Below are positions 18,024-23,596 of a stretch of DNA of 34,677 nt, in pieces. Origin of the DNA: Roseobacter sp. (GTDB lineage: Bacteria; Pseudomonadota; Alphaproteobacteria; Rhodobacterales; Rhodobacteraceae); the NCBI RefSeq assembly GCF_024639605.1, contig NZ_JAHEHZ010000019.1, positions 1 to 34,677 on the forward strand, written 5' to 3'. The notes under the pieces are model-generated. The model saw nothing but the letters and a program-made list of their open reading frames with translations. It was not told where the DNA came from and ran no database searches. How positions within the stretch are numbered: the stretch's first letter is position 1; every line of letters starts with the position of its first letter. The position numbers and the translations under genes were made by a program.

Positions 18024-21493
<3,470 letters not shown>

Positions 21494-21497
<4 letters not shown>

Positions 21498-21667
21498 TCG
21501 CTCACGGCCTCGCGCCGGGTACCAAAAGTGCGCAGCCGTTCCAGCAACTGCCGGGACGCTTCCACAGCGTTCAGCGATGCATGACAGGCCTCACGCGATG
21601 TGCGTTCGGTCGAGGCACTCTGACGGATCGCGGTATAGGACTGATACAGATGCTCAGGCTTCGTCAT
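21494..21667 (-). CDS. Unknown 57-residue protein encoded between bchX and bchY
   Basis: This small gene overlaps the end of bchX by 14 bases and the start of bchY by four. Its ATG has a perfect GGAGGT ribosome site at 21673-21678, five bases away, which lies within the last bchX codons. The protein starts [15 protein letters not shown] and continues through CHASLNAVEASRQLLERLR to EAVSE. It is soluble, has one Cys, and is predicted by eye to be nearly all helix with heptad-like hydrophobic spacing. I do not recognise it, and the Rhodobacter bchX-bchY junction as I remember it has no annotated gene here. Position and coupling suggest a small accessory or assembly partner of chlorophyllide a reductase, or a translational coupler for bchY. 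Confidence 0.7.
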
Positions 21668-22658
21668 AGACCACCTCCAGCGATGGCTTCGGCGCCGCAT
21701 TCTTGCCGCGCATGTCCACGTCTGTTGCGGGCACAAGAACATAGTCACCACCGGTCTCGGAGGCATCGAAAAGCCCCAGCAGTCCATCCTGATCAAGCGG
21801 CACCGGGCGCACAGGCGGTGCGACAGCGACGTTCTCGCCAAGCTCTGCAAAAAGTGCGCCCCACTGCGACTGCGCGGTGCCGACAATCTGATAGTTGGCG
21901 GATTTCTTGCGCAGGTCGTCATCCTGCGGGATGCTTGCGAGAACCGGAATATCGACAGCTTCGGCAAAAGCCGCAGCCTCGCCGGTACCGTCATCTTTGT
22001 TGATCACCAGGCCTGCGACACCGACATTGCCGCCAAGCTTGCGGAAATATTCCACCGCCGAGCACACGTTGTTGGCCACATAAAGCGACTGCAGATCGTT
22101 GGAGGCGACAAGAATAACCTTCTGCGCCATATCGCGCGCAATCGGCAGACCAAAGCCGCCGCAGACCACGTCGCCCAGGAAGTCGAGCAGAACGTAATCG
22201 AAATCCCAGTCGTGAAACCCGAGCTTCTCCAGGAGCTCGAACCCGTGAATGATGCCACGTCCGCCACAGCCGCGACCGACTTCCGGGCCGCCAAGCTCCA
22301 TCGCGAATACGCCGCCGCGTTTGAAACACACGTCACCGATCTGCACTTCTTCACCGGCAAGCTTCTTGCGGGTCGAGGTCTCGATGATTGTCGGGCAGGC
22401 CTTGCCACCAAACAAAAGCGATGTTGTATCGGATTTCGGATCGCACCCGATGAGCAGCACGCGCTTGCCCTGCTCGGCCATCATATGGCTGAGGTTGGCC
22501 AGCGTGAAGGATTTGCCGATCCCGCCTTTGCCATAGATCGCGATAATCTGGGTTTTGGAAGTGGGCGCGCCCTGGGGCACTTCAAGGGTCGGCTCGTCTT
22601 TCGCTTCGTCGCGCAGACGCTTGTCAAAATCCTTGAGGTTCGGGACTTCGTCCTTCAT
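21654..22658 (-). CDS. bchX: Chlorophyllide a reductase iron protein (subunit X)
   Basis: The 334-residue BchX is a NifH-like ATPase that passes electrons from its 4Fe-4S cluster to BchYZ. The P-loop GKGGIGKS is at 43-50, and the two cluster cysteines are C131 (GRGCGGRG) and C166 (VVCGGFG). The DPKSDTTS segment (73-80) is also typical. The N-terminal 35 residues are charged, as usual for BchX compared with BchL. The start overlaps the bchC stop by ATGA, and the stop lies inside the following small gene. Confidence 0.97.
21673..21678 (-). promoter_or_regulatory. Shine-Dalgarno site of the 57-residue gene, inside bchX
   Basis: GGAGGT on the - strand, five bases before the ATG at 21667, is as good as the pufB site and is embedded in the bchX codons for Glu-Val. 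It decides the start of the small gene and is the main evidence that the gene is translated. Confidence 0.7.
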
Positions 22659-23596
22659 GCCGCATCCTTCCAGTTGAGTATCATCTTGAGACAGTCAGGA
22701 TCGGTGAATGCCTGTTGGTACGCCGCAGGCGCATCGGCCGCGTCGCTGGTATGTGTGATAAGCCCGTCAAGGCTCAGCGATCCGCCTTCGACCAGCGCGC
22801 GTGTCGCGGCCAGGTCGTCGCGGGTCCACTCTGCCGCGACCCGGAACCGCGCCTCTTTCATGAAAGCGGGCGGAAAGGCAAAGCTGATCGGCTGGGAGTA
22901 AAACCCGGCGAGCACGATCTCTCCGCCCCGCCCCATGCAGGCGACAAGATCGTTCAGAACGTCGACACTACCCGAAGCATCATAGACCGACATGTAATCG
23001 CGGCGCTCGTCTTCGCGCGGATCGATCACCTGATACCCGGTGGCACCGGTGCGCCGGCCGGGATCGGTTTCCCAGACGGTGGGCGCCGGTGCACCCGCGG
23101 CCATGGTCAGCCGCGCAAGCAGCCGGCCCAGCACGCCGTGACCCACGATGAGATCCGGCACAGATTTGTTCAGACCGGCCATTGCGTGGCGGGCGGTCGC
23201 CGCCAGAGCGAGCAACGCACCGCTTTCACCAAACCCTGGATCGATTCGTGTCACCCGGTCCGCCGCCGTGACCACGCGGGAAGCTGCCCCCCCGAAAAGG
23301 CCAAAGGCACCATCATAGCAGTTTGCCCCCGGCACAAAGACGCGGTCGCCCGTGCGGTAGCCTGTGGCAGGGGCCGCTGCGACAACTTCGCCAACGGCTT
23401 CATAGCCCGGCACCAGCGGATAACCCATGCCCGGAAAGGGCGGCATCTGTCCGGTCCAGAACAGTTTTTCGGTGCCGGTGGAAATTCCTGAGTGAGTGAT
23501 GTCGACAACCAGGTCCCCCTCGCCCGGCGCAGTCAGCGTCAGACGGCCGACATCCAGATCGCGGGGACCTTTCAGGAGTACGGCGGTGGTTTCCAA
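22655..23596 (-). CDS. bchC: Bacteriochlorophyllide a dehydrogenase (3-hydroxyethyl oxidising)
   Basis: BchC oxidises the 3-hydroxyethyl group to acetyl late in bacteriochlorophyll a synthesis. The 313-residue protein has the MDR/alcohol-dehydrogenase layout: [16 protein letters not shown] near residues 35-50, [24 protein letters not shown], then a nucleotide-binding half ([13 protein letters not shown]) and EIVLAGFYS. It is the first gene after the promoter with two PpsR-type sites, 72 bases downstream of the nearer palindrome. The stop overlaps bchX. Confidence 0.96.

Follow-up and report, generated by a model that had tools for sequence, protein, structure and literature searches.

A small gene in the bchX-bchY overlap of Roseobacter sp. 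is very probably coupled to bchY and may encode a helical helper of chlorophyllide a reductase

Introduction

Chlorophyllide a reductase (COR), formed by BchX and BchYZ, belongs to the nitrogenase-type enzyme superfamily. It catalyses the committed reduction on the way to bacteriochlorophyll and is regarded as the product of three genes. The closest described small components are VnfG and AnfG, which serve the alternative nitrogenases as their small delta subunits and whose gene sits between the D and K genes. At the level of gene arrangement, ATGA stop-start coupled genes are known in bacterial operons.

Here we analyze a small gene lying between bchX and bchY in a window of 34,677 nucleotides from Roseobacter sp. 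(the whole stretch of DNA, contig NZ_JAHEHZ010000019.1). Like VnfG/AnfG, it encodes a small protein within the structural-gene operon of an enzyme of the nitrogenase type. Its product, however, gives no Pfam sequence match to them, it lies between the H-like and D-like genes instead of between D and K, and about half of the bchX-bchY junctions read lack a small gene. With stop-start coupled operon genes it shares the ATGA overlap and a ribosome site inside the preceding gene, yet it is tiny, its sequence evolves fast, and relatives have unrelated sequence in its place. Of the junctions read across the family, about half have a tiny coupled gene inside the COR operon. The junction is also a well-sampled natural case of tiny-gene turnover at an operon overlap. 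If their products act on COR, reconstitution and pathway engineering must account for them.

Results

Position and signals of the small gene

The features of the locus are as follows, with the evidence in brackets.

21494..21667, minus strand: 57-aa small gene, a class C junction gene (frame-specific selection; annotated R. ponti orthologue)
21673..21678, minus strand: GGAGGT ribosome site within the C-terminal codons of bchX (sequence; junction counts)
21654..21667, minus strand: 14-base overlap of the small gene with the end of bchX (sequence)
21494..21497, minus strand: ATGA overlap of the small-gene stop with the bchY start (sequence; NTGA in 95 of 107 classed genes)
21654..22658, minus strand: bchX (TIGR02016)
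19911..21497, minus strand: bchY (TIGR02015)
22655..23596, minus strand: bchC (4-base overlap with bchX; length equal to that of the annotated R. ponti bchC)

The small gene runs from an ATG at 21667 to a stop that ends at 21494, comprising 57 codons, and GGAGGT (21678-21673) ends five bases ahead of this ATG. Ribosome site and ATG are both encoded in the last bchX codons, in the +1 frame, and GGAGGTNNNNNATG is found once in the window against 0.19 occurrences expected. The four-base overlap of bchC and bchX covers 22655-22658. A first-pass annotation of this DNA had described the 57-residue gene, its overlaps of 14 and 4 bases and GGAGGT five bases before its ATG; all of this is confirmed, on the minus strand, which it had left unstated.

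The small gene as coding sequence

In Roseobacter ponti the small protein is 77% identical to that of the window. Comparing synonymous with non-synonymous change outside the overlaps, as the first-pass annotation had proposed, we obtained for codons 6-56 a dN of 0.148 and a dS of 0.453 (dN/dS 0.33; Fisher P 0.009 for the substitution pattern). The same pair of genomes gave a dN of 0.006 and a dS of 0.53 for bchX (300 codons), and 0.015 and 0.50 for bchY (380 codons). The synonymous rate of the small gene resembles that of its neighbours, and its protein is much freer, evolving far faster than BchX and BchY. Over the first 61 codons of bchY, dN was 0.007 and dS 0.20, compared with a dS of 0.50 in the rest, so synonymous rates vary near the junction.

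Of the 19 members of class C defined below, 14 sequences from the genus are exactly 57 codons long, and we examined these further. Their own frame contains no stop, whereas the five others hold 12-29, and the mean BLOSUM score per codon is 0.996. Column shuffling, repeated 2000 times, gives -0.085 ± 0.111 and never more than 0.318, and 2000 rounds of shuffling within codon position give 0.227 ± 0.073 and never more than 0.464. Related genomes have matching frames at the junction and substitutions respect the frame, so the gene as first proposed is not refuted. Altogether, this is almost certainly a real coding gene, and the substitution pattern indicates that its product itself is under purifying selection. 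A single-sequence search with the small protein returned one strong match among 58 other genomes; further relatives were found only through position and profile.

Annotation and database searches

A 'hypothetical protein' is annotated at the same place in the records of R. ponti (WP_169642524.1), R. litoralis Och149 (WP_158308178.1) and Tateyamaria omphalii (WP_076630660.1), all three annotations standing in plasmid records. In these relatives, the gene is not 'previously unmarked', as had been stated.

Searches of Pfam, NCBIfam and PHROGs with the small protein and the class C members gave weak matches below the cut-offs and no family, and single members of classes A, B and C likewise gave only weak sub-cut-off matches. 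For the small protein, Pfam returned no match at E up to 10, and the sole NCBIfam match was to an amidase model (E 0.046), far below the cut-off. In the PDB, the sequence of the 57-aa protein found nothing meaningful (best E 2.8), the best match of the class C profile was a designed helical heterodimer (E 0.12, not meaningful), and the BchY sequence retrieved only subunit N chains of the light-independent protochlorophyllide reductase and no COR structure. A literature search over largely open-access full texts found no report of a small gene between bchX and bchY. Of the signs of a regulatory leader peptide with an attenuator, neither was found: Rfam gave no match at gathering score in the window, and 21494-21667 has no terminator-like site.

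Junction genes across the family

We gathered 282 loci with bchX and bchY, corresponding to 254 distinct junctions, and left out L281, where bchY is alone on its piece. Junction genes were sorted into classes from seeds that were picked by eye and then iterated as profiles; since the seeds were hand-picked before iteration, the E-values of members are partly circular, and the frame and shuffle tests serve as the independent check. The 107 classed genes comprise class A (53 junctions), with the motif MFDLDxLxxxDxAL, class B (35), with ARPxQLxRLLxDI, and class C (19), the window's type, with serines at 10, 17, 24, 31 and 38 and a predicted single helix. Class B is followed by class C at one and the same junction in L005 and L070, and likewise in L072 by a weak match (E 0.02). 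In the frame test, class A (51 of 53 members) scored 1.70, where 500 shuffles reached no more than 0.99, and class B (33 of 35) scored 2.34, where shuffles reached no more than 1.67. Neither has in-frame stops, and by these measures both classes behave as coding.

A family-wide draw found BchY in 163 of 394 genomes and allowed 148 junctions to be read. At 72 of them lies a tiny frame of 20 or more codons: class A at 42, B at 19, C at 2 and another coupled frame of this length at 9. The remaining 76 have no frame of this length; 12 of these have a shorter coupled frame, and in 28 the bchY frame is open from a start codon lying at the bchX end. None of the 25 alphaproteobacterial junctions from outside the family has a tiny frame of 20 codons or longer. 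Among the named loci, 45 of 80 have a junction gene. Profile searches of 149 whole genomes found class A in 17 and class B in 10, and 16 and 9 of these matches, respectively, adjoin bchY, as judged by coordinates or by re-reading of L316 and L322. The two off-junction matches are weak (E 8.9e-4 in G024 and 3.4e-4 in G138) and come from genomes that gave no BchY. The comparison of sequences thus indicates that the bchX-bchY junction carries a fast-changing set of tiny genes in many relatives.

Class A members are 23-64 aa long, some of them with a Cys-Pro tail. Locus L041, which we take to be R. sphaeroides 2.4.1, has a class A frame of 28 aa, MLDLDTLARLDQALRQIAARQKRKGAGR, whose end overlaps bchY as ATGA; if this assignment is right, the view in the first-pass annotation that no such gene is known at the Rhodobacter junction is not supported. 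In L228, presumably D. shibae, the junction has an 18-codon frame only, and D. shibae itself may lack a junction gene. A D. shibae-based cluster table (PMC6052148) gives bchX followed directly by bchY, with no gene between them.

Spread within the genus

BchY is present in 17 of the 19 genus genomes. The class C profile, which was built from the same genus genomes that it was searched against, matched once each in 16 of the 19, all 16 matches lying beside bchY; among these genomes is G010, which fits R. denitrificans OCh114 and whose class C gene is that of locus L081. Neither of the genomes that lack bchY gave a class C match. In the one bchY genome missed by the profile, G013 (locus L079), a class B gene stands ahead of a 29-aa frame, which looks by eye like a cut-down class C gene (profile E only 0.26) and whose stop overlaps the bchY start as GTGA.

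Coupling to bchY

An NTGA stop-start overlap with a start in the bchY frame is found in 95 of the 107 classed genes (A 50/53, B 26/35, C 19/19), and three of the nine class B exceptions (L005, L070 and L079) lie upstream of a class C or C-like frame. The distance from the bchX stop to the bchY anchor, where it is at least 210, equals 1 modulo 3 in 107 of 140 junctions, compared with 38 of 114 for shorter distances. At the upstream end, of the 92 junctions whose classed or coupled frame starts at -13, 52 have GGAGGT, compared with 18 of the 116 that lack such a frame; these counts and the Fisher tests are uncorrected for relatedness. Class A genes directly after bchX (51 of 51) start in an overlap with the bchX stop, as ATGTTTGA in 38, ATGCTTGA in 12 and ATGTGTGA in one. 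In L057 and L122, an extra frame between bchX and the class A gene also ends in ATGTTTGA. On this evidence from gene arrangement, the small gene is very probably coupled translationally to bchY, which fits the idea in the first-pass annotation of a translational tuner of BchY.

The N-terminus of BchY before GCHSG (21375-21497 in the window, minus strand) varies in length and sequence among relatives, and in Rhodobacterales records the BchY match starts anywhere from query residue 1 to 43. In a search for junction motifs fused to this N-terminus, no class A, B or C match at E < 0.001 was found in the bchY frame; a few weak profile matches (E 0.13-0.84) do fall in it.

Predicted product and relations among the classes

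In the window's small protein, serines stand seven residues apart at 10, 17, 24, 31 and 38, and further ones at 19 and 56. Across the 14 aligned sequences, 47 of the 69 serines of residues 6-46 are in the heptad register, S24 and L41 are invariant (14/14), and the hydrophobic profile has a period of 3.5 (P 0.0006; for 3.6, P 0.08). AlphaFold2 predicts one helix from residue 4 to 56 (mean pLDDT 88, pTM 0.55). The description of the product as helical and free of known domains is therefore borne out by a predicted helix and by the absence of any Pfam, NCBIfam or PHROGs family.

Class B, found in Roseovarius, Yoonia and others, shares with the window gene the junction, the NTGA overlap and a helix motif; it differs in its predicted structure of two helices (mean pLDDT 76), unlike the single helix of class C, and it can coexist upstream of C. 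In hhalign, the B and C profiles align over 18 residues around (I/P)EQxxxLLxDI with a score of 25.3, whereas 200 column shuffles did not exceed 14.0, and B and C are thus probably distant relatives. Class A resembles the window gene in its junction and NTGA overlap, yet its profile shows no similarity to C beyond shuffles and is linked to neither B nor C. A derivation of class C from class A was rejected, the profile comparison being no better than shuffles. Mapped with the fewest changes on a rough BchX-BchY tree (FastTree, built from 253 of the 254 junctions with up to 214 residues apiece), class C requires 5 changes, A 20 and B 30, and the presence of any junction gene 51. On this tree, class C appears nearly clade-bound, and A and B appear to come and go.

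Discussion

The explanation to which we give a modest preference is that of a coupled relay gene with a selected helical product, probably a dispensable helper of chlorophyllide a reductase. Ribosomes finishing bchX would start the small gene and pass on to bchY via the stop-start coupling. The product, predicted to be one long amphipathic helix bearing heptad stripes of Ser/Ala and of hydrophobic residues, would most likely assemble as a coiled coil and could bind BchYZ or BchX during assembly of the reductase, being helpful yet dispensable. Both the coding nature of the frame and its coupling have good support, and the helper role is an inference. That the product matters in trans is likely, and its specific target may tentatively be taken to be chlorophyllide a reductase. 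Against this explanation count the fast evolution of the small protein, the single relative found by single-sequence search and the 76 of 148 family junctions without a frame of 20 codons or longer. Of the original interpretation, a real, selected and coupled gene with a predicted helical product stands, and its being unmarked in relatives and absent from Rhodobacter is not supported. The finding is true and larger than first noted, with a helper role as the candidate function of the product.

The main rival, which we consider rather unlikely, is a pure cis relay, where all that counts is that the frame is translated and that translation ends at the start of bchY, the peptide being a loosely constrained by-product. 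Such a relay accounts for a coupling that is kept while length varies and classes change, yet it leaves unexplained why the class motifs are conserved in the coding frame only. The 29-aa frame in G013 (L079), which looks like a shortened class C gene and retains GTGA with bchY, is readily accommodated by it, as are the coupled frames of fewer than 20 codons at 12 of 148 family junctions, although these may be due to chance. Fast evolution of the small protein also agrees with a by-product; against it stand a dN/dS of 0.33, the conserved heptad, whose register a pure relay has no need of, and the invariant S24 and L41.

A selected helical product need not act on the reductase, and it could instead be an accessory protein of the photosynthesis cluster that serves a pigment, the membrane or another assembly step and is sited here for co-expression. 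We regard this as improbable. That the gene occurs within the genus only where bchY does would fit any photosynthesis role, and an amphipathic helix would suit such targets as well, but the gene lies inside the bchX-bchY overlap and not elsewhere, and genes of two dissimilar kinds (A, and B/C) turn up repeatedly at this single junction. A non-coding spacer with a chance open frame is scarcely credible: 50-codon open frames are common in such G+C-rich DNA, many being listed on both strands, but the frame-specific substitution pattern, the genus distribution, the NTGA coupling and the heptad argue against it, and the window has no Rfam family at gathering score and the junction no terminator-like site.

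The preferred reading, that of a coupled gene with a helper product, would bear on how COR is reconstituted. In work on bacteriochlorophyll a synthesis in E. coli (PMC10443036), R. sphaeroides bchCXYZ was amplified as one piece of genomic DNA. If our assignment of L041 to R. sphaeroides 2.4.1 is right, the reported minimum gene set contains a class A gene that it does not list. Another report describes capsulatus and B. viridis components in mixed pairs in vitro, and therefore the enzyme can turn over in vitro without a further added partner. A more general picture, in which tiny helical COR helpers arise at the Rhodobacterales bchX-bchY junction, replace one another and perhaps fuse, with the E. 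coli minimum set silently including one, is rather unlikely.

Several smaller observations concern the composition of the junction genes. CP pairs, such as CPFH, CPLH and CPHL, occur in the second part of 15 of the 53 class A members (L097, L116, L207, L229, L255, L214, L250, L239, L045, L273, L280, L199, L234, L160 and also L260, where the CP looks incidental), and the Cys-Pro pairs of the longer members could possibly be metal or haem ligands. A CxxC start is present in seven of the 35 class B members (L127, L132, L152, L210, L215, L220 and L248), some of which have a further Cys (for example MTMCEECRIHKVDC), resembling a small metal site. In eight loci (L046, L088, L165, L172, L235, L246, L261 and L277) with no clear class, the translated stretch is Pro-rich and similar-looking, and our impression is that it is a repeated intergenic DNA element and not a gene. 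Finally, the Litoreibacter loci L117 and L159 have a class A-type start followed by a long tail, possibly a fusion of A with a second part.
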